Below the pieces are notes generated by a model that had not been told where the DNA came from, ran no database searches, and was given only the letters and a program-made list of their open reading frames with translations. Positions 1-23,976 of a DNA stretch of 24,973 bases are shown piece by piece. The stretch is from Tubiluchus corallicola (taxonomy: Eukaryota; Priapulida; Priapulimorpha; Priapulimorphida; Tubiluchidae). Location of the stretch: contig JAQGDQ010001801.1 in the NCBI GenBank assembly GCA_030141605.1, positions 1 to 24,973 on the forward strand, given 5' to 3'. Positions within the stretch are counted from its first letter, which is position 1. Each line of letters begins with the position of its first letter. The position numbers were made by a program, and so were the translations under genes.

Positions 1-321
1 ATGAAGTACAGCTTTCAGCATGTGGTGCCACTTTGAGTATCAGGTGCATGAGATATTTTGAGCATGAGCGGAGCACACTGAGCATCATCAGAAACCTACA
101 ATGTGAGTTGGTAAAAAAGCCAAATAAGAGCTCGTAATTTATACCAATATTTCATAATGATTTTACATAAATGTTTTTTTTGAAATAAAAATAATTCTAG
201 TTGAGACATGTTTTGTTGATGAATTAATATTGTCACAACTCACCAGAAAAGTCGTCTGCACGTGTGAATATTATTTTTATAAGATTGGTACTTATATAAA
301 TTTCTTTCTTTCTTTTGACAG

Positions 322-354
322 AACCTGCAGAGACTTGTACTTCCTGGAAGAAAT
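322..354 (+). pseudogene. Mirror copy of exon 6 on the plus strand (left arm)
   Basis: Identical to the minus-strand exon at 3538-3570, including the TTTGACAG acceptor and the GTGAGA donor. It would encode PAETCTSWKK in the opposite transcription direction. It may belong to an inverted paralogue whose upstream exons lie left of the window, or be a stranded duplicate. Typed as pseudogene only because no parent gene is visible here; nothing in the exon is broken. Confidence 0.5.
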
Positions 355-466
355 GTGAGATTTTGATTTGTCATTATTTTTGAAAGTTGTTTTTTATCTA
401 ATCATTTTAGCGCTTAACAATGCTGGATTATTTGGGTATCTATTAAATTGAAGATCAATCATGATT

Positions 467-530
467 GCAGTGGTAGGGTTGGCTGTATTGGATGTGTGAT
501 TTAAAGTCTCTAGTTCGAATCCAAGACTGG
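467..530 (+). repeat. tRNA-like (SINE-head-like) block, left arm
   Basis: Contains GCAGTGGTAGGG, resembling a tRNA D-arm/A-box, and about 40 bp later AGTTCGAATCC, close to the B-box consensus GGTTCGAATCC. The T-arm stem does not pair well and no acceptor stem is evident, so this is a tRNA-derived relic and not a functional tRNA gene. The mirror copy is at 3362-3425. Confidence 0.4.
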
Positions 531-688
531 TTATGTTTTGTTTTTGTAATAGTGGATTTTTTTACTAACAATAGCTAGTGTAGCTCTGAAAACATTATGT
601 TATGTAATTCGAAATGTGAGACATGATTTTTACTATTATCTAACTAATTTTAAAATAGTTAAACTAATTTTTGCTCTTGTTTTTATAG

Positions 689-733
689 CAGCAGACACAG
701 CCGGTCGCGTAAGCCTAAACTTTGCGCATGGAG
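689..733 (+). pseudogene. Mirror copy of exon 7 on the plus strand (left arm)
   Basis: Identical to the minus-strand exon at 3159-3203, with the same TAG-CAG-CAG acceptor series and GTAAGA donor. The peptide would be ADTAGRVSLNFAHG in phase 1. It is intact and splice-competent in appearance. It suggests a tail-to-tail duplicated gene or an inverted duplication of the 3' half of the receptor gene. Typed as pseudogene only for want of a visible parent gene. Confidence 0.5.
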
Positions 734-906
734 GTAAGAATGAGTCTCTTTTATTGCAGTAATAATTTTGCTAGGTGGCAGCATAGGTTATTTAAACACT
801 CTTATATGTTGCCTCCTCGAGTGAGGGAAATCCTAGTTTTAAACTGCCCATTATTTTGTTATTTTTTTAATTTTGATTAAGTATTGCCTGCTTAGCAAAG
901 TGCTTT

Positions 907-2201
907 GCTAGCCATCAGCACCACCTGGTGTTCACAACATTCAGTATGCTAGCCATCAGCACCACATGGTGTTCACAACATTCAGTATGCTAGCCATCAG
1001 CACCACCTAGTCTTCACAACATTCAGTATGCTAGCCATCAGCACCACATGGTGTTCACAACATTCAGTATGCTAGCCATCAGCACCACCTGGTGTTCACA
1101 ACATTCAGTATGCTAGCCATCAGCACCACCTGGTGTTCACAACATTCAGTATGCTAGCCATCAGCACCACATGGTGTTCACAACATTCAGTATGCTAGCC
1201 ATCAGCACCACCTGGTGTTCACAACATTCAGTATGCTAGCCATCAGCACCACCTGGTGTTCACAACATTCAGTATGCTAGCCATCAGCACCACCTGGTGT
1301 TCACAACATTCAGTATGCTAGCCATCAGCACCACATGGTGTTCACAACATTCAGTATGCTAGCCATCAGCACCACCTGGTGTTCACAACATTCAGTATGC
1401 TAGCCATCAGCACCACCTAGTGTTCACAACATTCAGTATGCTAGCCATCAGCACCACCTAGTGTTCACAACATTCAGTATGCTAGCCATCAGCACCACAT
1501 GGTGTTCACAACATTCAGTATGCTAGCCATCAGCACCACCTAGTGTTCACAACATTCAGTATGCTAGCCATCAGCACCACATGGTGTTCACAACATTCAG
1601 TATGCTAGCCATCAGCACCACCTAGTGTTCACAACATTCAGTATGCTAGCCATCAGCACCACCTGGTGTTCACAACATTCAGTATGCTAGCCATCAGCAC
1701 CACCTAGTGTTCACAACATTCAGTATGCTAGCCATCAGCACCACCTAGTGTTCACAACATTCAGTATGCTAGCCATCAGCACCACCTGGTGTTCACAACA
1801 TTCAGTATGCTAGCCATCAGCACCACCTAGTGTTCACAACATTCAGTATGCTAGCCATCAGCACCACCTGGTGTTCACAACATTCAGTATGCTAGCCATC
1901 AGCACCACCTGGTGTTCACAACATTCAGTATGCTAGCCATCAGCACCACATGGTGTTCACAACGTTCAGTATGCTAGCCATCAGCACCATCTGGTGTTCA
2001 CAACATTCAGTATGCTAGCCATCAGCACCACCTAGTGTTCACAACATTCAGTATGCTAACCATCAGCACCACCTGGTGTTCACAACATTCAGTATGCTAG
2101 CCATCAGCACCACATGGTGTTCACAACGTTCAGTATGCTAGCCATCAGCACCATCTGGTGTTCACAACATTCAGTATGCTAGCCATCAGCACCACCTGGT
2201 G
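907..2201. repeat. Minisatellite, 41-bp unit, about 31.6 copies (left of palindrome centre)
   Basis: The unit begins GCTAGCCATCAGCACCACCT and ends ACATTCAGTAT; successive GCTAGCC starts are 41 bp apart. Variation is concentrated at one site (CACCACCTGGTG, CACCACATGGTG or CACCACCTAGTG). The CACCA..TGGTG core can form a small hairpin. A 164-bp (4-unit) block marked by AACGTTCAG occurs at 1961 and again at 2125, a recent internal duplication. Confidence 0.98.
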
Positions 2202-2357
2202 GTTTGTGCATGGAAATCTTGATTTGCAAAAGAAAAGACTTGTGACCGAACTTCAAACAATCTTTTATTGTCTTGGAACAAAGAGCACAAACATGGTGTC
2301 AATATCAACACGACCGTAAAATATTTGAAATATTTCAGTAATATTTGCCATACTAAT

Positions 2358-2363
2358 TTTATT
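2358..2363 (-). terminator. Poly(A) signal AATAAA (minus strand)
   Basis: Canonical AATAAA hexamer in the unique spacer of the inverted repeat, 26 bp after the stop of the candidate terminal exon. A second hexamer is at 2264-2269. Placement fits a 3'UTR of the minus-strand receptor gene. AATAAA is common by chance in AT-rich DNA, so this is supportive only. Confidence 0.35.
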
Positions 2364-2388
2364 GATTGGTGGCAAATTGTGACTGACG

Positions 2389-2435
2389 TCAAATGCAAAG
2401 CATACTTGAAATATTTATGCACTGTTTAGAACTCT
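2389..2435 (-). CDS. Candidate terminal exon of the IgSF receptor
   Basis: Inside the palindrome spacer the minus strand has an acceptor-like GTTCGCCTCTAG. An open phase-1 stretch follows, encoding E-SSKQCINISSMLCI and stopping with TGA at 2391-2389. AATAAA lies 26 bp further on (2358-2363), and a second AATAAA is at 2264-2269. No AATAAA occurs on the plus strand of the spacer. The acceptor pyrimidine tract is weak and the peptide short, so this is the least certain exon. The alternative is that the gene ends by reading through the exon 7 donor. Confidence 0.3.
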
Positions 2436-2463
2436 CTAGAGGCGAACATTTGAAATGAAGGAA

Positions 2464-2971
2464 GGTGCTGATGGCTAGCATACTGAATGTTGTGAACACC
2501 AGGTGGTGCTGATGGCTAGCATATTGAATGTTCTGAACACCATGTGGTCCTGATGGCTAGCATACTGAATGTTGTGAACACCAGGTGGTGCTGATGGCTA
2601 GCATACTGAATGTTGTGAACACCAGGTGGTGCTGATGGCTAGCATACTGAATGTTGTGAACACCAGGTGGTGCTGATGGCTAGCATACTGAATGTTGTGA
2701 ACACCATGTGGTGCTGATGGCTAGCATACTGAATGTTGTGAACACCATGTGGTGCTGATGGCTAGCATACTGAATGTTGTGAACACCAGGTGGTGCTGAT
2801 GGCTAGCATACTGAATGTTGTGAACACCATGTGGTGCTGATGGCTAGCATACTGAATGTTGTGAACACTAAGTGGTGCTGATGGCTAGCATACTGAATGT
2901 TGTGAACACCAGGTGGTGCTGATGGCTAGCATACTGAATGTTCTGAACACCAGGTGGTGCTGATGGCTAGC
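2464..2971. repeat. Inverted 41-bp minisatellite, about 12.4 copies (right of palindrome centre)
   Basis: Same 41-bp unit as 907-2201 in the opposite orientation, with only about 40% of the copies. Outer units show part of the same variant order as the left array: the third unit from the edge carries the TAG variant, the fourth CATGG, the fifth CCTGG. The arrays therefore descend from one array that was inverted and then changed length. Confidence 0.97.
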
Positions 2972-3158
2972 AAAGCACTTTGCTAAACATAAAATAGCAG
3001 GCAATACTTAATCAAAATTAAAAAAAAAAATAACAAAATAATGGGCAGTTTAAAACTAGGATTTCCTTCACTCGAGGAGGCAACATATAAGAGTGTTTAA
3101 ATAACCTATGCTGCCACCTAGCAAAATTATTACTGCAATAAAAGAGACTCATTCTTAC

Positions 3159-3203
3159 CTCCATGCGCAAAGTTTAGGCTTACGCGACCGGCTGTGTCTG
3201 CTG
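3159..3203 (-). CDS. Exon 7: 45-nt cytoplasmic exon with triple NAG acceptor (right arm)
   Basis: The acceptor tract is CTCTTGTTTTTATAG followed at once by CAGCAG, so three in-frame acceptors (TAG, CAG, CAG) three bases apart are possible. The donor is GGAG|GTAAGA. Read in phase 1 it gives S/ADTAGRVSLNFAHG. If the donor is not used, the frame continues GKNESLLLQ and stops at 3130-3132, a possible alternative end. An identical mirror exon lies on the plus strand at 689-733. Confidence 0.55.
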
Positions 3204-6200
3204 CTATAAAAACAAGAGCAAAAATTAGTTTAACTATTTTAAAATTAGTTAGATAATAGTAAAAATCATGTCTCACATTTCGAATTACCTAACATAATGT
3301 TTTCAGAGCTACACTAGCTATTGTTAGTAAAAAAATCCACTATTACAAAAACAAAACATAACCAGTCTTGGATTCGAACTAGAGACTTTAAATCACACAT
3401 CCAATACAGCCAACCCTACCACTGCAATCATGATTGATCTTCAATTTAATAGATACCCAAATAATCCAGCATTGTTAAGCGCTAAAATGATTAGATAAAA
3501 AACAACTTTCAAAAATAATGACAAATCAAAATCTCACATTTCTTCCAGGAAGTACAAGTCTCTGCAGGTTCTGTCAAAAGAAAGAAAGAAATTTATATAA
3601 GTACCAATCTTATAAAAATAATATTCACACGTGCAGACGACTTTTCTGGTGAGTTGTGACAATATTAATTCATCAACAAAACATGTCTCAACTAGAATTA
3701 TTTTTATTTCAAAAAAAACATTTATGTAAAATCATTATGAAATATTGGTATAAATTACGAGCTCTTATTTGGCTTTTTTACCAACTCACATTGTAGGTTT
3801 CTGATGATGCTCAGTGTGCTCCGCTCATGCTCAAAATATCTCATGCACCTGATACTCAAAGTGGCACCACATGCTGAAAGCTGTACTTCATGTTAAAAGT
3901 GGCACCTCATGCTGAAAGCTGTACTTCATGTTAAAAGTGACACCTCATGCTGAAAGCTGTACCGCATGTTAAAAGTGGCACCTCATGCTGAAAGCTGTAC
4001 CTCTTGTTAAAAGTGGCACCACATGCTGAAAGCTGTACCTCATTTTAAAAGTGGCACCACATGCTGAAAGCTCTACCTCATGTTAAAAGTGACACCACAT
4101 GCTGAAAGCTGTACTTCGTATTAAAAGTGGCACCTCATGCTGAAAGCTGTACTTCGTGTTAAAAGTGGCACCACATGCTGAAAGCTCTACCTCATGTTAA
4201 AAGTGGCACCACGTGCTGAAAGCTCTACCTCATGTTAAACGTGGCACCACATGCTCAAAGTGGCACCTCATGCTGAAAGCTGTACTACGTGTTAAAAGTG
4301 GCACCTCATGCTGAAAGCTGTACCTCATGTTAAAAGTGGCACCACATGCTGAAAGCTAAACCTCATGTTAAAAGTGGCACCTCATGCTGAAAGCTGTACC
4401 TCATGTTAAAAGCGGCACCACATGCTGAAAGCTAAACCTCATGTTAAAAGTGGCACCTCATGCTGAAAGCTGTACCTCATGTTAAAAGCGGCACCACATG
4501 CTGAAAGCTAAACCTCATGTTAAAAGTGGCACCTCATGCTGAAAGCTGTACCTCATGTTAAAAGTGGCACTTCATGCTGAAAGCTGTACTTCATGTTAAA
4601 ATTGGCACCATATGCCGAAAGCTGTACCTCATGTAAAAAGCGGCACCTCATGCTCAAAATTACACTTACTGTCACTGGAAAACCATTGCTTTGTTGTGTA
4701 TGCAAACAAGACAAATCCAGCAACAATGATAGCAGCTAACAATGCAGCTATAGAACCAGATACTGCCAAGATTGGTTTAATGAGGGCTAATTCTATTAAT
4801 ACAAAACAAAACAAAGCAAAACTTATGTGACTGTCTTTAGAATAAGCCACAAACAACTGTGCAACAATTACTCAATAATACTGTGAGAATCTTTAGAATA
4901 AGCCACAAGCAACTGTGCAACAATTACTCAATAATACTGTGAGAATCTTTAGAATAAGCCACAAGCAACTGTGCAACAATTACTCAATAATACTGTGAGA
5001 ATCTTTAGAATAAGCTACAAGCAACTGTGCAACAATTACTCAATAATACTGTGAGAATCTTTAGAATAAGCCACAGACAACTGTGCAACAATTACTCAAT
5101 AATACTGTGAGAATCTTTAGAATAAGCCACAAGCAACTGTGTAAGAATCACTCAATAATACTGTGAGAATCTTTAGAATGAGCTACAAGCAACTGTGCAA
5201 CAATTACTCAATAATACTGTGAGAATCTTTAGAATGAGCCACAAGCAACTGTGCAACAATTACTCAATAATACTGTGAGAAAATCTTGAAGAAAGTAGTT
5301 ACTGACCAGCACAAGTATTTACCTATCAATAACTTACATCATCCTACACAATACAGTACTGTAAACATACTCTGGGTTCGGCATGATCGTATAGTAAGTA
5401 TTTACCTATCAATAACTTACATCATCGTACACAATACAGTACTATAAATATACTCTAGCTTCGGCATGATCGTATAGTAAGTACTTACCTATCAATAACT
5501 CTCATCATCCTACACAATACAGTACTGTAAACATACTCTGGCTTCGGCATGATCGTATAGTAAGTATTTACCTATCAATAACTTACATCATCCTACTCAA
5601 TGCAGTACTATAAATATACTCTAGCTTCGGCATAATCGTATAGTAAGTATTTACCTATCAATAACTCTCATCATCCTACTCAATACAGTACTGTAAACAT
5701 ACTCTGGCTTCGGCATGATCGTATAGTAAGTATTTACCTATCAATAACTTACATCATCCTACGCAATACAGTACTGTAAACATAATCTGGCTTCGGCATG
5801 ATTATATAGTAAGTATTTACCTATCAATAACTTACATCATCCTACTCAATACAGTACTGTAAACATAATCTGGCTTCGGCATGATTATATAGTAAGTATT
5901 TACCTATCAATAACTTACATCATCCTACTCAATGCAGTACTATAAATATACTCTAGCTTCGGCATGATCGTATAGTAAGTACTTACCTATCAATAACTCT
6001 CATCATCCTACTCAATACAGTACTGTAAACATACTCTGGCTTCGGCATGATAATATAGTAAGTATTTACCTATCAATAACTTACATCATCCTACGCAATA
6101 CAGTACTGTAAACATAATCTGGCTTCGGCATGATTATATAGTAAGTATTTACCTATCAATAACTTACATCATCCTACTCAATACAGTACTGTAAACATAA

Positions 6201-9200
6201 TCTGGCTTCGGCATGATTATATAGTAAGTATTTACCTATCAATAACTTACATCATCCTACTCAATGCAGTACTATAAATATACTCTAGCTTCGGCATGAT
6301 CGTATAGTAAGTATTTACCTATCAATAACTCTCATCATCCTACTCAATACAGTACTGTAAACATACTCTGGCTTCGGCATGATCGTATAGTAAGTATTTA
6401 CCTATCAATAACTTACATCATCCTACACAATACAGTACTGTAAACATACTCTAGCTTCGGCGTGATCGTATAGTAAGTATTTACCTATCAATAACTTACA
6501 TCATCCTACACAATACAGTACTGTAAACATACTCTTACCTGGTAACTTTCAATTCTTACTGAGATCAAACAAAAACATTCAACAAATTCCTCTTTTCTAT
6601 ATCTAAATCTCAGCGAAAATAAGTAAAAATATTCAGTCATTCGTTAGCCTAGCATAAAAAAGGTGAACACTGCAATACAAATAAAAGCTTAAAAGTGATT
6701 TGCGTTGCATCAGAGTAGATGCCCGTTTAAAAGAATACTTACCAATTCTTCTAGCACCACGATCCACCTCCACAAGCACTCGGAATTTTTTCATAGCGTT
6801 AAGATTCTTTACAACAAGCCAGTAAGTTCCCGTGTCTCTTTCTCTTGCTGAAACAATGAGAAGTGTTGCGGCATAGCATAGCTCCTCTTTACCACTGCTG
6901 CTGTTCTGAGAGAACACGTAGCGGATGCTGCCAATTATACGACCCTCAAAGTCCATCCGAGAAGTCGTGGGCGTCAGAGTAATCTTCCCGTCTGTCCACT
7001 CCCACCGAACCTCGGTAAACAGTGTCAATGAGCAGAAGTAGGTGGTGACATTGAGTTTGCTGTAAGCAGGTGTATGAAAAGCTGTCTGGCTTCCTGGCAT
7101 TAATTCTGGTTCTTCTGCAAACGTCACAAACTTACAATGTTTTATAAGATGAATATCATCATTTTCATGTTTCTTTGCTCAGTAGCTTGGAACTTTTCAA
7201 ACAACTCTACAATTGAACTTTATCCTTGTAACATTTGTAACATTGTTAATCTGTAACATAGTGTGACATAGTTGTAACATTGTTAATCTGTAACATAGTT
7301 GTAACATTTGTAACATTGTTAATCTGTGACATAGTTGTAAAATTGTTAATCTGTAACATAGTTGTAACATTTGTAACATTGTGAATCTGTAACATAGTTG
7401 TAACATTGTTAATCTGTAACATAGTTGTAACACTTGTAACATTGTTAATCTGTAACATAGTTGTAACATTTGTAACATTGTTAATCTGTAACATAGTTGT
7501 AACATTTGTAACATTGTTGATCTGTAACATAGTTGTAACATTTGTAACATTGTTGATCTGTAACATAGTTGTAACATTTGTAACAAATGTGTAACATTTA
7601 GTGAGAAAGAGAAGGCATCCCGTATTACACAATCATCTGATGAAAATGATCAATAATTTATCACTTTTTAATTCAGTATTGCTTTTGTAAGTTTATCACA
7701 CCTGCATTGATGAGTGCCGGTGATCGTTTCGACTACAACTGTCATCATCAACGCTTGAAATCAAGTGAAAAAATCAATACATTTACAGCACATTAACGCA
7801 CAAAATACAGATACAAACACAAAAAAGTGAAATTTAAATTATCAAAAACTAGTGGAAATAACTGGAAAGAGTTTCATACGAAAATGTAAGAAATTGTACC
7901 TCACACAAGAGGCAACGACCACAACTCCAGCAAACAATTCAACATACAATAATATTACAAAGTGCAAAAGTAATTATTGATTGGTGGTGAAAGGGTGGCG
8001 AAAGAACTATAAGTTATCGAGGTCAGCCACCCTCTCAGGATTGTTACTAATATAATTAACTTGTTAATGCGCATGTACCAGGTAATTAAAAATTATCAGA
8101 TTTTGCATTTAAGATGAATGAAAATTGAATTATTATACAAATGTGTTAGTTTATAATAAAATAATGTTCAATAATGGGAAAGAAGGACACACGTGACCAT
8201 CTTTAAATATCACCGTATTTTCCCATGTATAAGAGACCCTTTTTGGCTCAGAATTTTCACTTTAAAAATAGGGGGTCTCTTATACATGGGAGTAAGTCTC
8301 CGACTCCAATCTGACACCAACTAGCAAGGTAAGAAAGCCAACCCTTGGAGAAGTCTGCAGCTGGGTCCTCAAGGCATGGAATGGTGTAAAGCCAGAGGTC
8401 ATTATTAAATCTTTCAAGAAGTGTGGCATCTCCAATGCCATGGACGGCACAGAGGACAATGCCATTTTTGAGCAGAGTGACTCCTCTGATGATGAACTGG
8501 CTCGAATTGCTGAAGGTCTGACTCCAGTTGATATTTTTGATGAGAGTGATGAGGAATTTAATGATTTCTATGATGAATAAAGTTATTCATTACCAAAAAA
8601 CTTTTTTCCAGAATTTTTGCCTAAAAATTGAAGGGGTCTCTTATACACAAGGGTCTCTTATACATGGGAAAATACGGTAATTTAACCATTACATATTTAA
8701 AATTAATGTTATGAGGACCTAGAGCCAAAGGAAGAAAAAATTAATTTTCCGCTTGCAGCTAGCAAAAGTGGATAAACATGTAAGTTTAGTTATGAAAAAA
8801 AGAGTTGAAAGAAAAGTATCTTAAAATTCTTTAGGATTAGCGTCCATTATTGCAACATCTACATAATGGGAGAAACTTGTTATGACAGTAATGAGTATTA
8901 AGAGAATGAATTGGTTGTTGAGTCATAAATGTATTGAATATTGATTTTGGTTTGATTTCTAACATTGATAATAACAGATATTGTTGTAATGATTATCTGC
9001 AGTTTGTACACGCCATAGGAACTGATTCTTTCATATATTTAAGAAGCTAGAGCAGCGGAACATTGAAAACAAACACTTGTGGCAGGAACGGTACCTAATC
9101 ATTACATACCTGACTCAGCCACTAAAAGACCGACTGTAAGGTTCTTTTCACCATCCCCGTTTGCCACTGATAATGAGTAGTTCCCCGAGTCAGTGAGCTC

Positions 9201-12200
9201 TGATGAGCTAATCGATAACGTTGCACTGTAGCAATCATTTGCAGTGCTGTTAGTCACAATGCTCGCTGCAATGCGATCCTCAAATGACCCCTGTGTTTTC
9301 GAGTGTGTGAGGTTTATCTGACCGTTGGACCATGTCCATCTGGCTTGTATATACTCGGGTAGCGAACAGAAGTAAAGAGTCAAAATAATGCTTTCACCAA
9401 CGTAACATTTGTATTCTGTTTTAGTATCCCGCCAAACTCTTATCGTGTTACTTCCTGCTGAAAAATACGAATCAATACTTTTTGCTATTGATCAACATAT
9501 TTAAATATTGGTCAAGGGCAGGACTACAACTTTTTGGAAGCCCTTAGGTTAATGAAATTACAGAGCCCCCTTAGATGGAGCTACCCTTTAATTCGCACGA
9601 ACACGTCTCAAGTATTTCTTTTACTCTTGACATATTTTAGCGACAATTACATAGCTTGAAGGAAGACCATTGCAAGTTTTATAAATAAACTGGAATAATT
9701 ATGTTTTTATGTCAATAAAAATGTTGTTTAAGAAATGGCACCATTTTAGTAATTAGTGCAATAAATTGTTGCAGTATCAAATTAGTATGAATTTTAACAC
9801 AGCTGTAGTGAAAAAGAGACTTTACACTAACTTACACTATGCTTGCACGTGTGTTTCTATGCTTGCATGTGTGTCTCTATGCTTGCCTGTGTGTTTCTAT
9901 ACTTGCATGTGTTTCTATGCTTGCATGTGTGTTTCTATGCTTGCATGTGTGTCTCTATGCTTGCATGTGTGTTTCTATGCTTGCACGTGTGTCTCTGTGC
10001 TTGCATGTGTGTTTCTATGTTTGCATGTGTGTCTCTGTGCTTGCACGTGTGTCTCTACGCTTGCCTGTGTGTTTCTATGCTTGCATGTGTGTCTCTATGC
10101 TTGCATGTGTGTCTCTATGCTTGCATGTGTGTCTCTGTGCTTGCATTTGTGTTTCTATGCTTGCATGTGTGTCTCTGTGCTTGCACATGTGTCTCTATGC
10201 TTGCACGTGTGTCTCTATGCTTGCATGTGTTTCTATGCATGCATGTGTGTCTCTGTGCTTGCACATGTGTCTCTATGCTTGCACGTGTGTCTCTGTGCTT
10301 GCACATGTGTCTCTATGCTTGCACGTGTGTTTCTATGCTTGCATGTGTGTCTCTGTGCTTGCACGTGTGTTTCTATGCTTGCATGTGTGTCTCTATGCTT
10401 GCCTGTGTGTTTCTATGCTTGCATGTGTGTCTCTATGCTTGCATGTGTGTTTCTATGCTTGCATGTGTGTCTCTATGCTTGCATGTGTGTCTCTGTGCTT
10501 GCATTTGTGTTTCTATGCTTGCATGTGTGTCTCTGTGCTTGCACATGTGTCTCTATGCTTGCACGTGTGTCTCTATGCTTGCATGTGTTTCTATGCATGC
10601 ATGTGTGTCTCTGTGCTTGCACATGTGTCTCTATGCTTGCAGTGTGTTCTTGCTTCACTGTGTCTCTATGCTTGCATGTTCTATGCTTGCATGTGTGTCT
10701 CTATGCTTGCAGTGTGTTTCTATGCTTGCATGTGTCTCTATGCTTGCATGTGTGTTTCTATGCATGCACGTGTGTCCCTATGCTTGCATGTGTGTCCCTA
10801 TACTTGCATGTGTGTCTCTATGCTTGCATGTGTGTTTCTATGCTTGCATGTGTGTTTCTATGCTTGCATGTGTGTTTCTATGCTTGCATGTGTGTTTCTA
10901 TGCTTGCATGTGTGTTTCTATGCTTGCATGTGTGTCCCTATGCTTGTATGTGTGTTTCTATGCTTGCATGTGTGTTTCTATGCTTGCATGTGTGTTTCTA
11001 TGCTTGCATGTGTGTTTCTATGTTTGCATGTGTGTTTCTATGCTTGCATGTGTGTTTCTATGCTCGCATGTGTGTCTCTATGCTTGCACGTGTGTTTCTA
11101 TGCTTGCAAGTGTGTTTCTATGCTTGCATGTGTCCCTATGCTTGCATGTGTGTTTCTATGCTTGCATGTGTGTTTCTATGCTTGCATGTGTGTTTCTATG
11201 CTTGCATTTGTGTCTTTATGCTTGCATGTGTGTTTCTATGCTCGCATGTGTGTTTCTATGCTTGCATGTCTGTATTATTATATGGCTAGTATACGTCCAG
11301 TTGAGCTTTGGTAGCATTTAGTAAAAAGTTTTTTTTTTCATTAAAGTTGTATTGAAGTGTCTGCCAATGTGATACAAAATTGTGGTATTTCTTAAAGAAT
11401 ATTTTTATTGACAAACAAAAGACAGCCATTCTGGTTTATTTAAAGAATTTACAAGTAGGTTCACTTCAAATTATGTAAATGTCGCGAGTAAAATATATCA
11501 GGAGCAAAAATATTTAAAAATTCAAGACGTGTGGGGTCGAGTTAGAGGGTGACCCCGTCTACAAGGACCCCAAAATTTCATGCGCTTGCAGACACCAAAA
11601 GATCACTACATGGCCCTGCTCACAGCATTTACTGAGCCCAGCAAAAACCACTTTATACTCTGAAGAGGCCCTGTACCAGTCTTCACTTGTTGCCAAGCAT
11701 TCTAACCACTAAGCTATTTCCTTTGCCTACACACTAACCGTCTTACCTTTGCTTATATTGGTTAAGCGGCCATTTGCGGGAGCAAGATGGACGCTGACAT
11801 TAAATCTAGTCCACGTATTGTTCGCCTTCACTAACAACGAATAGACTTTTGCATCCGTGGCCGAGATTGAATGTAACAGCAGAGTGGCCATGTAGCAGAA
11901 CTTGCCGAAATCGAGAGCTAGTCGTGTGAGTGGTGCGATGCCGGTCCTAACGGGTGTTGCCATGGTAACGGCGGCTCTTACATCCGCATGATTTTTCCAC
12001 TGCCACTTTACGCCACTGACATTGTGCTCGCCGCAAAAACGCAGCGAAATGTTGAGGTCCTCGCCGAGTACCCCTTCAAATGATATTTTGCTGTTTGGAA
12101 TCAGCACCGGTTTACCTGCAAATAAATAAATTTGAAAACACAAATAAATAAAATAAATGAATAAAATCAAAACTTTTCATGACAATTTTTTTACTTTTGC

Positions 12201-15200
12201 TCACAGCCATCTTTCATTTGGTCAAGAACATTTTTTTACCTATTCGAAGCACTAAAATGGTGCATATTCTATTATTCTGTTCTAAAAATGGATTAGTGGA
12301 CTAAACAGTGCACTTATTATAATGTTCTTGACACTCAACTGACTACATACTAAATTCTTGCTTATGTATCAAGCAGGATATAGTTGCGGATTCATAACAT
12401 GAAATTATCTCAAGGTCACTCCATGCAGGGCTTCGCTTTCACTACCCAGTGTTTAACTACTAACTGCCTATATATAGGATTCAACATTAGGGACAGAGAA
12501 ACTGCTAACATGTTGTTGATGCTAGATGTTGATAAACATGTTGTTGATGCTAGATGTTGATAAACATGTTATTGATGCTAGATGTTGATAAACATGTTAT
12601 TGATGCTAGATGTTGATAAACATGTTGTTGATGCTAGATGTTGATAAACATGTTGTTGATGCTAGATGTTGATAAACATGTTGTTGATGCTAGATGTTGA
12701 TAAACATGTTGTTGATGCTAGATATTGATAAACATGTTATTGATGCTAGATGTTGATAAACATGTTATTGATGCTAGATGTTGATAAACATGTTATTGAT
12801 GCTAGATGTTGATAAACATGTTGTTGATGCTAGATGTTGATAAACATGTTGTTGATGCTAGATGTTGATAAACATGTTATTGATGCTAGATGTTGATAAA
12901 CATGTTATTGATGCTAGATGTTGATAAACATGTTATTGATGCTAGATGTTGATAAACATGTTGTTGATGCTAGATGTTGATAAACATGTTGTTGATGCTA
13001 GATGTTGATAAACATGTTATTGATGCTAGATGTTGATAAACATGTTATTGATGCTAGATGTTGATAAACATGTTGTTGATGCTAGATGTTGATAAACATG
13101 TTATTGATGCTAGATGTTGATAAACATGTTATTGATGCTAGATGTTGATAAACATGTTGTTGATGCTAGATGTTGATAAACATTTTGTTGATGCTAGATG
13201 TTGATAAACATGTTGTTGATGCTAGATGTTGATAAACATGTTGTTGATGCTAGATGTTGATAAACATGTTGTTGATGCTAGATGTTGATAAACATGTTGT
13301 TGATGCTAGATGTTGATAAACATGTTGTTGATGTTAGATGTTGATAAACATGTTGTTGATGCTAGATGTTGATAAACATGTTGTTGATGATGCTAGATGT
13401 TGATAAACATTTTGTTGATGCTAGATGTTGATAAACATGTTATTGATGCTAGATGTTGATAAACATGTTGTTGATGCTAGATGTTGATAAACATGTTATT
13501 GATGCTAGATGTTGATAAACATGTTGTTGATGCTAGATGTTGATAAACATGTTATTGATGCTAGACGTTGATAAACATGTTATTGATGCTAGATGTTGAT
13601 AAACATGTTATTGATGCTAGATGTTGATAAACATGTTGTTGATGCTAGATGTTGATAAACATGTTGTTGATGATGCTAGATGTTGATAAACATGTTGTTG
13701 ATGCTAGATGTTGATAAACATGTTGTTGATACTTGATGTTGATAAACATGTTGTTGATGCTAGATGTTGATAAACATGTTGTTGATGCTAGATGTTGATA
13801 AACATGTTATTGATGCTAGACGTTGATAAACATGTTATTGATGCTAGATGTTGATAAACTGTTATTGATGCTAGATGTTGATAAACATGTTATTGATGCT
13901 AGATGTTGATAAAAAAGACAAGTGGTTTCAAGCAAACAGAAAGAAATTAATCAGCCGAAACATAAGTAAAACTCACAAGACATTTAATTTATGTGATTCA
14001 AGCAGCACTGATTTTTGTCTCAGAAATGCGTCTCAAATCTTTTATATTACTCGGGAAATCCTGGTTTTGTTTAATGACGTTTAGCTTGACGGCGCGTTTT
14101 GCTGAAATCCCTTAAACTACCGTATTTTCCCATGTATAAGAGACCCTTTTTTGCTCAGAATTTTCACTTTAAAAATAGGGGGTCTCTTATACATGGGAGT
14201 AAGCCAACCCTTGGAGAAGTCTGCAGCTGGGTCCTCAAGGCATGGAATGGTGTAAAGCCAGAGGTCATTATTAAATCTTTCAAGAAGTGTGGCATCTCCA
14301 ATGCCATGGACGGCACAGAGGACAATGCCATTTTTGAGCAGAGTGACTCCTCTGATGATGAACTGGCTGGAATTGCTGAAGGTCTGACTCCAGTTGATAT
14401 TTTTGATGAGAGTGATGAGGAATTTAATGATTTCTACTTTTTTCCAGAATTTTTGCCTAAAAATTGAAGGGGTCTCTTATACACAAGGGTCTCTTATACA
14501 TGGGAAAATAAGGTAATTTTGCTGGAATGCCTTAACTAATTTTGCTGGAATGCCTTAACTAGTTTTGCTGGAATGCCTTAACTAGTTTTGCTGGAATGCC
14601 TTAACTAATTTTGCTGGAATCCCTTAACTAGTTTTGCTGGAATGCCTTAACTAATTTTGCTGCAATGCCTTAACTAATTTTGCTGGAATGCCTTAACTAG
14701 TTTTGCTGGAATGCCTTAACTAATTTTGCTGGAATGCCTTAAACTAATTTTGCTGAAATGCCTTAACTAATTTTGCTGGAATGCCTTAACTAATTTTGCT
14801 GGAATGCCTTAACTAATTTTGCTGAAATGCCTTAACTAATTTTGCTGGAATGCCTTAACTAATTTTGCTGGAATGCCTTAACTAATTTTGCTGCAATGCC
14901 TTAACTAATTTTGCTGAAATGCCTTAACTAATTTTACTGAAATGCCTTAACTAATTTTACTGAAATGCCTTAAACTAATTTTACTGGAATGCCTTAACTA
15001 ATTTTACTGAAATGCCTTAACTAATTTTACTGGAATGCCTTAACTAATTTTGCTGGAATGCCTTAACTAATTTTGCTGGAATGCCTTAACTAATTTTGCT
15101 GCAATGCCTTAACTAATTTTACTGAAATGCCTTAACTAATTTTACTGGAATGCCTTAACTAATTTTACTGAAATGCCTTAACTAATTTTACTGGAATGCC

Positions 15201-17876
15201 TTAACTAATTTTGCTGCAATGCCTTAACTAATTTTACTGGAATGCCTTAACTAATTTTGCTGCAATGCCTTAACTAATTTTGCTGAAATGCCTTAACTAA
15301 TTTTACTGGAATGCCTTAACTAATTTTACTGAAATGCCTTAACTAATTTTACTGAAATGCCTTAACTAATTTTACTGGAATGCCTTAACTAATTTTGCTG
15401 CAATGCCTTAGCTAATTTTGCTGCAATGCCTTAACTAATTTTGCTGCAATGCCTTAACTAATTTTGCTGCAATGCCTTAACTAATTTTGCTGGAATCCCT
15501 TAAGTAATTTTGCTGGAATGCCTTAACTAATTTTGCTGGAATCCCTTAACTAATTTTGCTGGAACGCATTATTAACTCCTTTCCAACAGGTAGATACATC
15601 ATCTGTGATGGCTAAACACTTTGTGCTCTTCAAATTTGATGAAATTTGGAGAAAAATAACTAACATACAATAAAATTATATGAAAACAAAAAAGTTGTGT
15701 TGTTATCTTTGTTTTCACTCTTTAAAAGAATATTTTCTAATGGACAAAAATTTTGCTTTGTGCTTATACAGCAATTCAGTGCATCAGTGACATTGATCTG
15801 CCTTGTGCTGATTAGCTAGGCTACTGTCAGCAATGGCTAGGCTACTGTCAGCAATGGCTAGGCTACTGTCAGCAATGGCTAGGCTACTGTCAGCAATGGC
15901 TAGGCTACTGTCAGCAATGGCTAGGCTACTGTCAGCAATGGCTAGGCTATTGCTGTCCACTCCAAACTAACTTTTATTGTCATCATCCGGGCGTGTGTTC
16001 ACAGAATGTGACAGCAGCAAGCACTGGTCACTGTCCAGTGCACATGAGCTCTACGAGCTCTACTCTGAACAGACTTGATGTTGTTTTGCTTCTGAATGTA
16101 CAAAATGCCTTTGAATGCAGGAAAACGAAAAAAAGTTACAATGTTTTGGGATATTTCTTTAATATTTGGTGTAATTTCACAGTTGGACTTATCACTTGGA
16201 CAGTTGGACTTATCACTTGGGCAGTAATGAGTTACATGATTACAATCGGATACTTTCTGTTTGTTTCACTTATTAGCAGTACTGCATGTATGCTAGCAAA
16301 TATTAAGCCTTTGCAAAATCTCTTGGAAGTAGACCAATGTTCATAAAAAATATTAATGGCCACTATCTTACTATACAATTACTGATCATTAAGGAAGTGC
16401 TGGCTGTCAATTAACCACACCAGTGGCTGGTTGATAACTACCTGCTGCCAGCAGAGGGCAGACACACCAGTGGCTGGTTGATAACTACCTGCTGCCAGCA
16501 GAGGGCAAACACACCAGTGGCTGGTTGATAACTACCTGCTGCCAGCAGAGGGCAGACACACCAGTGGCTGGTTGATAACTACCTGCTGCCAGCAGAGGGC
16601 AGACACACCAGCGGCTGGTTGATAACTACCTGCTGCCAGCAGAGGGCAGACACACCAGCAGCTGGTTGATAACTACCTGCTGCCAGCAGAGGGCAGACAC
16701 ACCAGTGGCTGGTTGATAACTACCTGCTGCCAGCAGAGGGCAGACACACCAGTGGCTGGTTGATAACTACCTGCTGCCAGCAGAGGGCAGACACACCAGT
16801 GGCTGGTTGATAACTACCTGCTGCCAGCAGAGGGCAGACCCACCAATGGCTGGTTGATAACTACCTGCTGCCAGCAGAGGGCAGACCCACCAGTGGCTGG
16901 TTGATAACTACCTGCTGCCAGCAGAGGGCAGACACACCGCGGCAAGTGTTGCAATTCTAGCACAAATTTCATAATGCCTGAGCGCATCTAAACAGCTGTC
17001 AAATGTACAAACTTTAATTGATCTGAACACTTTTTGTGAAATTTTATGCAGAAATAAATACTTTACAATATTTATGTTGAACAGTTTTAGATACAAGCTG
17101 TCACTTGAAAGCTGGGAAGGTTTAATATAAAAAAAATTCGAATTATCCTATTAATAACACCACTGAGTAAAAAAATCTAAACTTTAAATTTACAATGCTA
17201 GAAAAAAAGTGTCTTCAGAAAATATAATAAGGTATGCACTAGTATCTCACACATGTAAGCTGTTATGGGCAGCTTTATTTGGGGATGTCAAAACTTTACA
17301 AATATTCATCATCGTAAACAAGTTAAGTTAATGGAAATAAATAAATTTACTATTTACTAATATTTACTCATTTAAGCAAGAACTCACAGTACAGTCAACC
17401 CTCGTTAAACCGGATTAATTGGTGGGGGTGGGGTGGTCCGGTTCAGCCGATTGTCCGATTTATCCGATATGCTTATATATGATCTATATTATACACGAAT
17501 AATCACCTTAATAAGGCCTATATACATTGCACTATATACTATACTGTATATTACTTTAAAATAGTTAGCCTGTGAGGATAAAGAAATTATTGTACAGTTG
17601 GTAGGTCGTGTTGTGTTTAGCGCTCTGGCTCGGATGGAAATCGGTCAGTCTACCACGGATGACGTCCGTCTTATCCGATATCCGGGCTAACGGGGTCCGG
17701 TTTAACGAGGGTCGACTGTATCTATGAATGCGTTTCGGAAATGATTAAAATAATGAAGCTTTACTATAAAAGCTATTAGAAAAGTTTTGTCTCGTATTAA
17801 ACTTACCAGATATTGCAATGAAAGATACGCTGGTAATGAAAACCGAGATCCGCAAAAATATTACATAATTCTTCAT
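3159..17876 (-). CDS. Gene model: type I membrane IgSF receptor (signal peptide, 3 Ig-like domains, TM, short tail)
   Basis: Minus-strand model joining 17876-17807, 12115-11747, 9457-9110, 7114-6743, 4792-4670, 3570-3538 and 3203-3159, with a possible end exon at 2435-2389. Each junction has AG/GT edges and splits a codon after its first base, so the frame stays open throughout and any internal exon can be skipped in frame. With the end exon it totals 1407 nt (468 residues). The predicted product is a secretory-pathway protein with a cleavable signal, three Ig-like ectodomains of 116-124 residues, one membrane helix and a cytoplasmic tail of roughly 50 residues without an ITIM or ITAM tyrosine motif. 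Ligand and pathway are unknown. The layout resembles invertebrate self/non-self or adhesion receptors, but that is inference from architecture only. I do not recognise a named orthologue. Confidence 0.75.
3538..3570 (-). CDS. Exon 6: 33-nt cytoplasmic microexon (right palindrome arm)
   Basis: The acceptor is TTTCTTTCTTTTGACAG and the donor AAAT|GTGAGA. Reading in phase 1 after exon 5 gives K-PAETCTSWKK. The length is a multiple of three with phase 1 at both ends, so it can be included or skipped freely. It lies inside the right arm of the giant inverted repeat and has an identical mirror copy on the plus strand at 322-354. Support is the strong polypyrimidine tract and compatible phase. The small size leaves some doubt. 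Confidence 0.55.
3857..4652. repeat. Minisatellite, 38-bp unit, about 20 copies
   Basis: Unit built from TGTTAAAAGTGGCACCACAT followed by GCTGAAAGCTGTACCTCA, with frequent CTCAT/CACAT, GTACC/TAAAC and GTACTT variants and one shortened unit near 4250. The first unit and a half overlap the palindrome arm, so the same array probably also lies just left of the window. It fills the intron between exons 6 and 5 up to the exon 5 donor. Confidence 0.97.
4670..4792 (-). CDS. Exon 5: transmembrane segment
   Basis: 123 nt, phase 1-1. The acceptor has a T-rich tract ending TATTAATAG|AATTAG and the donor is GACA|GTAAGTG. It encodes about 41 residues: a short juxtamembrane ELALIKP, a membrane helix of about 23 residues (ILAVSGSIAALLAAIIVAGF then VLFAY), and the start of the cytoplasmic tail TTKQWFSSD. 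A positive charge on the cytoplasmic side fits type I topology after the signal peptide. The donor lies only about 10 bp from the edge of the 38-bp minisatellite, and the acceptor side is followed within about 45 bp by the 56-bp minisatellite. The exon is thus almost walled in by repeats. Confidence 0.8.
4833..5279. repeat. Minisatellite, 56-bp unit, about 8 copies
   Basis: Unit GAATCTTTAGAATAAGCCAC then AAGCAACTGTGCAACAATTA, ending CTCAATAATACTGTGA; spacing is 56 bp (for example 4861 to 4917). Very homogeneous. Lies in the intron upstream of the TM exon. Confidence 0.97.
5313..6536. repeat. Minisatellite, 83-bp unit with 332-bp higher-order repeat, about 14.7 copies
   Basis: Unit starts AAGTATTTACCTATCAATAA and ends ATGATCGTATAGT; starts at 5313 and 5396 give an 83-bp period. 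Unit types alternate (ACTGTAAACATACTCTGG versus ACTATAAATATACTCTAG). A four-unit block recurs after 332 bp: the marker CCTACGCAATACAG occurs at about 5758 and 6090. On the gene's sense (minus) strand every unit contains GATGTAAGTTAT and ATAGGTAAATAC, both like 5' splice sites. Confidence 0.97.
6539..6558 (-). other. Candidate 20-nt poison or secreted-isoform microexon
   Basis: Between domain 3 and the TM exon the minus strand shows a strong acceptor (GTTTTTGTTTGATCTCAG), 20 bases, then a strong donor (TTACCAG|GTAAGAG). Entered in phase 1 it encodes VRIESYQ and exits in phase 0. The TM exon would then be read AAT TAG and stop at once. Inclusion would therefore give a receptor ending before the membrane helix, or a transcript degraded by NMD. 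The sequence match is good, but exons this short occur by chance and there is no expression evidence. Confidence 0.3.
6559..6742. other. Intron 4 segment next to exon 4 donor
   Basis: About 180 bp of unique intron between the candidate microexon and the domain 3 donor. On the minus strand it includes the open extension downstream of exon 4 (to 6633). No other feature is seen. Confidence 0.5.
6743..7114 (-). CDS. Exon 4: Ig-like domain 3
   Basis: 372 nt, phase 1-1. The acceptor is GTGACGTTTGCAG|AAGAACC and the donor ATTG|GTAAGT. It encodes 124 residues beginning EEPELMPGSQ. Strand B reads VTTYFCSLTL, strand C VRWEWTDGK, then DFEGRIIGS, strand E LCYAATLLI and strand F DTGTYWLVVKN. The B and E cysteines are kept and the F cysteine is leucine, as in the other two domains. 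Sequons are NVT and NSS. The domain ends in a basic juxtamembrane stretch (DRGARRI) that leads into the TM exon. If the donor is ignored, the frame stays open for about 37 more codons (to 6633) with a partly hydrophobic tail, so intron retention could give an alternative C-terminus. Confidence 0.85.
7229..7598. repeat. Minisatellite of TAACATTTG/TAACATTGTTAATCTG type, 27- and 36-bp units
   Basis: Composed of TAACATTGTTAATCTGTAAC plus ATAGTTG, with or without an extra TAACATTTG module, giving 27- or 36-bp units; about 11 units. Several frames on both strands stay open only because the period is a multiple of three, which makes repetitive peptides such as TMLQINNVTNV. These are not genes. Lies in intron 3, about 115 bp from the exon 4 acceptor. 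Confidence 0.95.
7599..8212. other. Unique intron 3 sequence
   Basis: About 600 bp of AT-rich intronic DNA without repeats, convincing exons or transposon ends that I can see. Confidence 0.5.
8213..8677 (+). mobile_element. Non-autonomous pogo/Tigger-like element, copy 1 (465 bp)
   Basis: Terminal inverted repeats start CCGTATTTTCCCATGTATAA and the right end is the reverse complement, finishing GGGAAAATACGG. The right flank is TA; the left flank is CA, probably a mutated TA target duplication. The interior (about 8323-8580, plus strand) encodes the tail of a pogo/Tigger-type transposase: PTLGEVCSWVLKAWNGV, KSFKKCGISNAMDGTED, then an acidic end FDESDEEFNDFYDE, a TAA stop and AATAAA. There is no helix-turn-helix or DDE catalytic core, so it depends on transposase from elsewhere. 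It sits in intron 3 of the IgSF gene, antisense to it. Confidence 0.85.
8678..9109. other. Unique intron 3 sequence next to exon 3 donor
   Basis: About 430 bp of AT-rich intron between the pogo-like element and the domain 2 donor. No gene or repeat is seen. Confidence 0.5.
9110..9457 (-). CDS. Exon 3: Ig-like domain 2
   Basis: 348 nt, phase 1-1. The donor is TCAG|GTATGT. The acceptor is a tandem NAGNAG (TTTTTCAGCAG), so the exon may start at 9457 or 9454, adding or removing one alanine at the domain's N-terminus. It encodes 116 residues. Motifs: strand B in LTLYFCSLPEY, strand C in ARWTWSNGQ, a FEDRIAAS segment, strand E in CYSATLSISS, and strand F in DSGNYSLSVANG. The strand-F cysteine is again leucine. 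One additional cysteine lies near the N-terminus (YKCYVGES). Sequons are NLT, NST and NLT. The domain is clearly paralogous to the other two in the W-x-W, F-E-x-R-I and C-Y-x-A-T-L blocks. Confidence 0.85.
9458..9839. other. Unique intron 2 sequence
   Basis: About 380 bp between the domain 2 acceptor and the 20-bp array. No feature is recognised beyond the acceptor tract. Confidence 0.5.
9840..11275. repeat. Minisatellite, 20-bp TG-rich unit, about 72 copies
   Basis: Unit GCTTGCATGTGTGTTTCTAT with CACG/CATG/CCTG and TTTC/CTCT/CCCT variants and a few 18- or 16-bp units. A 20-bp unit shifts frame by two, so all three plus-strand frames stay open for almost 1.5 kb and spell the same cysteine-rich repeat (CMCVSMLACVFLCLHVCFYA). 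This is repeat arithmetic and not a gene. TGCATGTGTGT is an alternating purine-pyrimidine run in most units. Occupies most of intron 2. Confidence 0.98.
11525..11725 (-). repeat. tRNA-derived SINE-like element
   Basis: On the minus strand, about 20 bp after the exon 2 donor, there is a tRNA-like head: ATAGCTTAGTGGTTAGAATG then CTTGGCAACAAGTGAAG. This matches the D-arm/A-box and anticodon-arm pattern of a tRNA-derived SINE. The B-box region (CTGGTACAGGGCC) is degenerate. A body of about 150 bp follows, with GGGGTCCTTGTAGACGGGGT and CACCCTCTAACTCGACCCC. The 3' limit is approximate and no target duplication was found. Confidence 0.5.
11747..12115 (-). CDS. Exon 2: Ig-like domain 1
   Basis: 369 nt, phase 1 at both ends. 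The acceptor is TTATTTGCAG|GTAAACC and the donor AAAG|GTAAGA. It encodes 123 residues starting KPVLIPNSK. Ig signatures: a strand-B cysteine in NISLRFCGEH, a strand-C tryptophan pair in VKWQWKN, and a strand E/F segment FCYMATLLL...DAKVYSLLVKAN. The usual strand-F cysteine is replaced by leucine (Y-S-L) and another cysteine lies before YMATL. Five N-x-S/T sequons (NIS, NVS, NNT, NVS, NIS) suggest heavy glycosylation. The membrane-proximal end (PANGRLTNISK) is a linker. A tRNA-derived SINE-like sequence begins about 20 bp past the donor. Confidence 0.85.
12116..12508. other. Unique intron 1 sequence
   Basis: About 390 bp between the domain 1 acceptor and the 28-bp array. AT-rich; no exon, repeat or element is seen. 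Confidence 0.5.
12509..13912. repeat. Minisatellite, 28-bp unit, about 50 copies
   Basis: Unit CATGTTGTTGATGCTAGATG plus TTGATAAA, with GTTGTTG/GTTATTG variation and two units carrying an extra GAT. Very homogeneous. Each unit contains TGTTGAT and ATAAACA, both of which fit the degenerate forkhead consensus. Lies in intron 1. Confidence 0.98.
13913..14096. other. Unique spacer between two arrays
   Basis: Short unique intronic stretch. A small plus-strand open frame starts in the 28-bp repeat and runs through it, with no coding signature. Confidence 0.4.
14097..15567. repeat. Minisatellite, 23-bp unit, about 46 copies, split by a transposon
   Basis: Unit GCTGGAATGCCTTAACTAAT plus TTT, with GCTGG/GCTGC/ACTGA/ACTGG variants. 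The first unit (14097-14119) is separated from the rest (14514 onward) by the pogo-like element. Each unit contains GGAATG or AAATG/CAATG variants. Lies in intron 1. Confidence 0.97.
14120..14513 (+). mobile_element. Non-autonomous pogo/Tigger-like element, copy 2 (394 bp), inserted in a minisatellite
   Basis: Same ends as the 8213-8677 element, here with TA on both sides (14118-14119 and 14514-14515). It is nearly identical to copy 1 apart from two deletions. One removes about 41 bp upstream of PTLGEVCSWVLKAW. The other removes about 30 bp carrying the true stop and AATAAA, so the frame runs on into FFPEFLPKN before stopping at about 14465. Its left flank, GCTGAAATCCCTTAAACTA, is a 23-bp satellite unit that resumes on the right side, so the element landed inside that repeat. 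Confidence 0.85.
15568..15814. other. Unique intron 1 sequence
   Basis: About 250 bp; nothing recognised. Confidence 0.4.
15815..15950. repeat. Minisatellite, 21-bp unit, about 6.5 copies
   Basis: GCTAGGCTACTGTCAGCAAT plus G repeated almost perfectly. Lies in intron 1. Confidence 0.95.
15951..16413. other. Unique intron 1 sequence with a plus-strand open frame of doubtful meaning
   Basis: A 117-codon plus-strand open frame (15993-16346) starts MCSQNVTAAS and has a hydrophobic second half. Part of that half is a perfect 21-bp tandem duplication (about 16179-16220), which doubles the peptide TVGLITW. I recognise no domain, splice context or poly(A) signal, and it is antisense to the receptor gene. 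I judge it more likely chance than gene. Confidence 0.3.
16414..16940. repeat. Minisatellite, 47-bp unit, 11 copies, each with a CTCF-like core
   Basis: Unit CACACCAGTGGCTGGTTGAT then AACTACCTGCTGCCAGCAGA, ending GGGCAGA, at 47-bp spacing (16421, 16468 and so on). CCAGCAGAGGGCAG matches the published CTCF core CCASYAGRKGGCRS at all 14 positions in ten units; the second unit has one mismatch (GGGCAA). All copies point the same way. The array lies in intron 1, about 0.9 kb downstream of the signal-peptide exon. Confidence 0.95.
16941..17391. other. Unique intron 1 sequence
   Basis: About 450 bp of AT-rich DNA. A 62-codon minus-strand open frame here runs into the 47-bp repeat. It lacks a usable acceptor and I do not consider it an exon. 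Confidence 0.4.
17392..17718. mobile_element. MITE with pogo/Tigger-like ends (327 bp)
   Basis: Ends CAGTCAACCCTCGTTAAACC and the reverse complement of a near-identical sequence (CCGGTTTAACGAGGGTCGACTG), flanked by TA on both sides. CAGT termini plus TA target duplication fit the pogo/Tigger branch of the Tc1/mariner superfamily. No transposase coding remains. It sits about 90 bp from the exon 1 donor. Confidence 0.8.
17807..17876 (-). CDS. Exon 1: start codon and signal peptide of the IgSF receptor
   Basis: The ATG is at 17876-17874 and the exon encodes 23 residues plus one base. It begins MKNYVIFLRIS and continues with a hydrophobic core VFITSVSFIAIS, a typical signal peptide with a basic n-region. 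The donor is excellent (TCTG|GTAAGT, GT at 17806-17805). The split codon G+GT restores glycine with the first Ig exon. The intron to the next exon is about 5.7 kb. Upstream on the minus strand there is no obvious TATA box. A TTTTCAG about 80 bp upstream could mark the start of a 5'UTR exon, so the transcription start is undetermined. Confidence 0.8.
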
Positions 17877-21730: not shown

Positions 21731-21868
21731 CTAGTAAAAGAAAAACAAAGCTTTAGCTCATTTCTGCCTAAATTCTAATTCTGAAATACTTCAATTAAGT
21801 TAGTAAAATATAAGAGTTGTGTGGCTAAATATTCGTACAAAATTAAGCCCATCAGGACTTGCAATCAT

Positions 21869-22239
21869 TAAGGGGTGAGCATTCTCCATCAGAAAATGAT
21901 TTGAATCTAATCGAATTTTCCACTTTCGAATTTTAATCAAACCGAATTACGAGAATTAAATTCTGTGTCAAAGATTTCCAAATTATTAATTTTCAAAAAC
22001 TCTGTCTCACGAAGGTTATGCATATTGCTTGATTTTATTCTACAGTAAAAACATCAATAATTTGTTTGAAAATTGTTCTGATTGGACGGTGTTTCAAACG
22101 TTTAAATGATAAAAAAATTTTGTAGTTGAAATGGAAAATTAATTGAATCAAAATTTTAGATGCAAATTTAATTCGAATTAGGAAAATTGGTTCGAATTCG
22201 ATGTGGCTATTCGACCTTGAAAGTTCGATGCTCACCCTG
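21869..22239. mobile_element. hAT-like MITE (371 bp)
   Basis: Ends TAAGGGGTGAGCATTC and GTTCGATGCTCACCCTG are inverted repeats. They are flanked by an 8-bp duplication with one mismatch (GCAATCAT at 21861-21868, GCGATCAT at 22240-22247), the hAT signature. The interior is AT-rich with repeated TTCGAATT motifs and no transposase. The related element at 23518-23932 shares ends and composition. Confidence 0.7.
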
Positions 22240-23517: not shown

Positions 23518-23932
23518 TAGGGGTGAGCATCGAATGTTCGAGTTTGAAGGCTTGAATCAAATTCGAACGAGTTTTTTTTAGTTCAAATTCGATTCGAACC
23601 TAAAACTATAAATTCAAATAATTCAGCATTTCAATCACATACGTTCTTTATCATTAAAGTGAATGAAACTATTAGCATAATTTAGCTGTGATTTCTGTGC
23701 ACAATTTTACACAAGTTATTGGTGGTTTTACTGCAGAATAAAATCCCGTAACATGCACGATCTTTGTAAGACTAATTTTTACTGGTGGTTCGAAAACATG
23801 TTCGAAAATCTTTCGTTCTCGATTTGAATTTGATTCGGATTTGAAACACCGCAGTTTGGTTTGACTGGAATTCGAAAGTCACAAGTTCGAGTCGATTTGA
23901 ATTCGTTTTCTGGTGGGGAATGCTCACCCCTA
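23518..23932. mobile_element. hAT-like MITE (415 bp), relative of 21869-22239
   Basis: Ends TAGGGGTGAGCATCGAAT and GGAATGCTCACCCCTA are inverted repeats, and the interior is rich in TTCGAATT/ATTCGAA as in the relative. A clean 8-bp target duplication is not visible. Confidence 0.65.
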
Positions 23933-23976
23933 AAGCCAACCTCACTTAGTACCCAAACTGTAAGCAAAATAAGCTG

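Follow-up and report, generated by a model that had tools for sequence, protein, structure and literature searches.

Inverted duplications that carry IgSF genes have been described before in an animal genome. In the excerpts of the Folsomia candida paper that deal with this subject, palindromes make up 11 of the 15 blocks within scaffolds, and one of them holds 2 x 8 Dscam2 IgSF genes (PMC5490193). Inverted duplication of an IgSF gene thus belongs to a known kind of arrangement. The same excerpts cite 17 palindromes for Adineta vaga and also refer to the palindromes of the human Y. Inverted gene copies are the common feature of these systems, and conversion has been proposed to homogenise their arms; for the human Y it is said to have been shown (as cited in PMC5490193). 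Fold-back primed palindromic duplications of yeast and mammalian cells are outlined in part of PMC7999016, where a break and a turn-back lead to inverted copies around a centre. The hpRNA loci of Drosophila, as portrayed in passages of PMC10292708, contain an inverted repeat that is complementary to a coding gene. The Alr family of Hydractinia consists of unusual IgSF genes in clusters, and the Podocoryna paper used a signal peptide as a criterion (portions of PMC11876637 and PMC13119343).

The locus discussed here lies at the beginning of a contig from the priapulid Tubiluchus corallicola (GCA_030141605.1, JAQGDQ010001801.1); the window is the whole stretch of 24,973 nucleotides that was analysed. 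Like the F. candida palindrome, it appears to be an inverted duplication with an IgSF gene in an animal genome. However, in F. candida whole multi-gene blocks with a synonymous rate of 0.2 are involved (PMC5490193, as excerpted), whereas here the arms are 0.2% different and only two mirror exons are visible. The yeast and mammalian fold-backs are experimental and are seeded by short inverted repeats (PMC7999016, in part), whereas here we infer the origin and the turn-back would lie in a minisatellite. A minisatellite at the turn-back point is a little unusual; the papers searched on palindromes, minisatellites and sponge genomes offered general precedents only. The likeness to the Drosophila hpRNA loci concerns an inverted repeat that is known here from DNA alone, and the likeness to the Alr family is by description only and is a lead.

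The first-pass annotation had described a large, near-perfect palindrome at 1..3891 with arms of about 900 bp. Such a palindrome is present: positions 1-1414 are the reverse complement of 3891-2464 in a single BLAST alignment of 1428 columns with 98.3% identity, and the match is perfect as far as window position 1, as had been stated. The inverted arms pair as 1-868 with 3024-3891 and as 882-1414 with 2464-2996. An arm of 905 bp agrees with the length first given, but the repeat continues about 500 bp further inward through 12.4 units of a 41-bp array. In the same way, the centre had been placed at 2202-2463; 262 bp of unique sequence do lie there, but the non-palindromic centre is wider (1415-2463, 1049 bp) and consists of 787 bp of extra array in addition to the unique 262 bp.

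All 24 differing columns of the alignment can be listed. They are two substitutions (603/3289 and 825/3067), four extra T in the right arm (a T-run of 7 on the left vs 11 on the right), 10 extra bases in the right arm close to the border of the 41-bp array, and eight substitutions in the array. The two substitutions in 905 bases correspond to an arm divergence of 0.22% (95% CI 0.03-0.80%). Both fall in the inner 303 bases and none in the outer 602, numbers that are too few for a divergence gradient. The homopolymer runs of at least 5 bases are equal in length in 11 of 12 cases. An inverted match this long with two substitutions is, judged from the alignment, far beyond chance. There are thus two near-identical inverted arms with predicted gene exons in both orientations, as in gene-containing palindromes. 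By eye, a short near-palindrome, TAGCAAAGTGCTTTGCTA, can be seen in each arm where the 41-bp array has its outer border (893-910, mirrored at 2968-2985).

Table 1. Positions of the arms, arrays and predicted exons in the window
Feature	Position	Strand	Remarks
Left arm of inverted duplication	1..905	+	self-alignment; open at base 1
Mirror copy of E6	322..354	+	identical; 33 bp
Mirror copy of E7	689..733	+	identical; 45 bp
Left 41-bp minisatellite	906..2201	+	31.6 units; units 0-12 pair with right array
Unique 262-bp spacer	2202..2463	.	two AATAAA on minus strand, starts 2363 and 2269
Right 41-bp minisatellite	2464..2972	-	12.4 units, in register with arm-side end of left array
Right arm	2973..3891	-	self-alignment; reverse-complement partner of 1-905
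Predicted E7, cytoplasmic	3159..3203	-	phase 1; 45 bp
Predicted E6, cytoplasmic	3538..3570	-	phase 1; 33 bp
Predicted E5, transmembrane-like	4670..4792	-	exon chain
Predicted E4, Ig-like domain exon	6743..7114	-	
Predicted E3, Ig-like domain exon	9110..9454	-	structure modelled
Predicted E2, Ig-like	11747..12115	-	by alignment to E3 and E4
Predicted E1, start codon and signal-peptide-like	17807..17876	-	exon chain

The gene at the right arm is predicted to have seven minus-strand exons that chain with GT-AG borders, and every junction is in phase 1. Phase 1 junctions are usual for Ig-domain exons. The joined chain is 452 residues long and free of stops; the signal-like E1 and the transmembrane-like E5 were read from it by eye. 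By a simple in-house score, the acceptor of E6 ranks 1st and that of E7 joint 2nd among 1612 minus-strand AG sites, and by the same score the acceptors of E2, E3, E4 and E5 rank 15, 120, 87 and 47. With structure modelling, one Ig exon of the three (E3) shows a confident Ig fold. The Pfam Ig profiles scored below their curated cut-offs for the E3 frame (19.2 vs 23.7 bits) and the E4 frame (17.4 vs 21.8 bits) and had no match to the E2 frame, and general homologue searches returned no protein homologue at E 0.001. The all-phase-1 chain and the confident fold support the receptor proposed in the earlier annotation. The gene reads, as a prediction, as an IgSF receptor with a signal-like exon, three Ig-like exons, a TM-like exon and two short tail exons. 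A Bax1-I identity of the TM frame was considered and set aside, as its Pfam score of 16.2 bits lies below the cut-off of 34.1 and was taken as hydrophobic chance. A tyrosine signalling motif in the tail was likewise discarded; one Tyr only was counted in the stretch. In the three Ig exons YxL replaces YxC, so that the strand-F Cys is missing, and a Cys is found where strand E begins instead (strands assigned by hand on the E3 model).

Intact plus-strand copies of predicted E6 and E7 with the same splice sites had been claimed for the left arm, and both were found there with unchanged sequences and splice sites. We tried a further exon of 11 bp at 3790-3800 (mirror 92-102) and dropped it from the chain, since its acceptor ranks 874 of 1612 and its omission keeps all junctions in phase 1. 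In favour of keeping it, only two donors in the 4.67-kb stretch score better than its own, and the donor of E6 scores lower (9 vs 10.5). Inclusion of this exon shifts the frame, and the tail then ends early within E7 as QQTQPVA-stop. Both tail readings use E6 and E7, and the mirrored exons are therefore independent of the 11-bp exon. Past E7, read-through runs into a double stop whose first stop ends at 3130. The terminal exon may begin at an acceptor at 3132, 2435 or 2382 or be a read-through to 3130, and these options are not separable; the frame of the right-hand gene stays open to E7, and the 3' UTR of this gene may cross the array and extend into the AATAAA-containing spacer.

The order of the repeat units in the two 41-bp arrays is informative. 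At offset 0, the register that is set by the arms, the arrays have 8 mismatches in 509 bp, and at the 19 other in-array offsets there are 11-20 mismatches each. When left units were drawn at random, 8 of 20000 draws matched as well as the observed order, and when only the first 12 left units were shuffled, 191 of 20000 were as good. By the in-register fit and the order test, the shared stretch takes in the array to unit 12 and then ends. Variant C30G occurs in two units of the right array (R0 and R10) and is absent from 31 left units, which argues that the two array copies have separate histories. Units with CCTAG make up 8 of the 19 left inner units, 1 of the 12 left arm-side units and 0 of the 12 right units (one has CTTAG). 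This contrast between the left inner units and both arm-side sets is expected if a break truncated the right array. The 41-bp unit had no matches in viral_contigs and genome_contigs, from which records of its own genome may be left out.

The arms, the common in-register array and the lopsided centre are observed directly, and a turn-back history can be reconstructed from these. A lopsided pair of arrays (31.6 vs 12.4 units, followed by 262 bp of unique sequence) fits an asymmetric fold-back inverted duplication, and we consider it reasonably likely that a real duplication of this type took place at the 3' end of the predicted IgSF receptor gene; we are less certain which way the copying went. 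In the simplest history, a break or a fork would have turned back after the whole left array and the 262 bp, switched strand at unit 12 and run back out, so that the joint would fuse position 2463, 262 bp past the array, to position 1414 in array unit 12 on the opposite strand. The product would be a tail-to-tail copy outward through E7, E6 and perhaps the whole gene. The right-hand gene would then be the copy, and a mirror gene would be expected left of base 1. The near-identity of the arms and the in-register array support the recent, or conversion-homogenised, inverted duplication of the receptor 3' end that had been put forward. The favoured reading of the sequence is that the duplication is young or that conversion has homogenised its arms, two cases that one sequence cannot separate, and the arrays would have begun to drift since. 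Copying may also have gone in the reverse direction, with the right gene and the spacer original, only the 3' end copied and the novel joint at 2201/2202. This rival also holds the duplication to be real and so overlaps with the explanation given above. The spacer carries its AATAAA hexamers on the minus strand, with neither AATAAA nor ATTAAA on the plus strand of 2202-2463, and this suits the right gene as its native neighbour. However, two AATAAA in 262 AT-rich bases are weak evidence and were given less weight because such hexamers are common in AT-rich DNA. The reverse direction would also need a left array that grew to 31.6 units, from 12.4 or fewer, and gained unit types absent on the right, or else a loss on the right side that ended exactly at the edge of the array, and we regard it as a tentative alternative that is less probable than not. 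Inverted arrays around a short loop are found in the FB elements of Drosophila and are resembled by the arrays seen here. A foldback-type transposon with minisatellite arms is nevertheless very improbable and was rejected: the inverted repeats are not confined to an element, the homology runs at least 905 bp past the arrays and enters the predicted gene exons, and a second copy of the spacer was not found within the window.

A technical origin of the palindrome, such as a fold-back from MDA, a chimera from nanopore or PacBio sequencing, or haplotypes misjoined at the contig end, deserves attention, since the window starts inside the palindrome and the lopsided fold-back shape is that of amplification chimeras. 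In the available sections of PMC1855051, more than 85% of MDA rearrangements are inversions with intervening deletions. For Arabidopsis, 40-50% of the PacBio reads from amplified DNA are reported to hold palindromes, against 0.5% without amplification (PMC6218980, in excerpt), and inverted-repeat reads made up 0.18-7.33% of those from ligation-based nanopore libraries (PMC13141652, abstract). An intramolecular fold-back copies one molecule, and its arms should therefore be alike after consensus. The copies here differ by 10 substitutions and a 10-bp indel, with a variant in two units that is found on the right only, and are thus not identical apart from read noise, which disfavours such an artefact. 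The equal homopolymer runs likewise argue against read noise. A missed adapter would give a symmetric centre and was ruled out by the asymmetric one of 1049 bp. A haplotype misjoin, however, would also give arm differences, and the drift of the arrays could be allelic. Overall a technical palindrome is unlikely, though far from negligible. The arms look like sequences with separate histories, and a real duplication is probably the better explanation of them than a fold-back artefact.

It had also been suggested that a transcript across the centre could form a hairpin of about 900 bp. Computed folding of 1-3891 indicates that this is physically possible: if a shift of up to 20 positions is allowed, pairing with the mirror partner is seen for 904 of 905 left-arm bases of the plus strand and for 903 of 919 right-arm bases of the minus strand. 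This near-complete pairing would suit a hairpin-RNA locus, in addition to a real duplication, in which transcription across the centre yields long dsRNA and the receptor is silenced or edited by it. The dsRNA idea has a real model, since duplicated targets are regarded as the source of hpRNAs in Drosophila (PMC10292708, in the passages available). However, 1049 bp lie between the arms, and any inverted repeat folds likewise, so the pairing of the arms is no evidence of use. We regard such a locus as quite improbable. The inverted copy might be imagined as a young cis-acting hairpin-RNA control element whose dsRNA against the tail exons tunes or edits an IgSF recognition receptor, a role that must be called highly doubtful.

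If the duplication is real, an IgSF receptor gene is seen here shortly after it was duplicated in inverted orientation; a minisatellite would then mark the turn-back point, and the unit-level variants of this array would record where the copy stopped. Loci of this kind lead to the questions of how receptor families grow and whether conversion homogenises the copies. If the palindrome is an artefact, it is a warning against paralogue counts at contig ends.

Other repeats are present in the window. Minisatellite arrays account for 7405 of the 14718 bp of the predicted gene span (3159-17876). Five of the six introns contain arrays, with units of 38; 56 and 83; 36; 20; and 28, 23, 21 and 47 bp; only the E6-E7 intron of 334 bp is free of arrays. 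Searches of Rfam at the gathering score and for tRNA each gave 0 matches. Two elements that are about 99% alike (8206-8685 and 14112-14520) carry terminal inverted repeats (33 and 35 bp), and their plus-strand frames match Pfam DDE_1 below the cut-off (14.9 and 15.7 vs 22 bits); they are perhaps a pogo-like remnant. Further inverted repeats pair 21868-22237 with 23521-23934 (66% identity), 9552-9747 with 11376-11581 (70%) and 17363-17414 with 17696-17749 (81%), and these are perhaps transposon ends or foldback elements.
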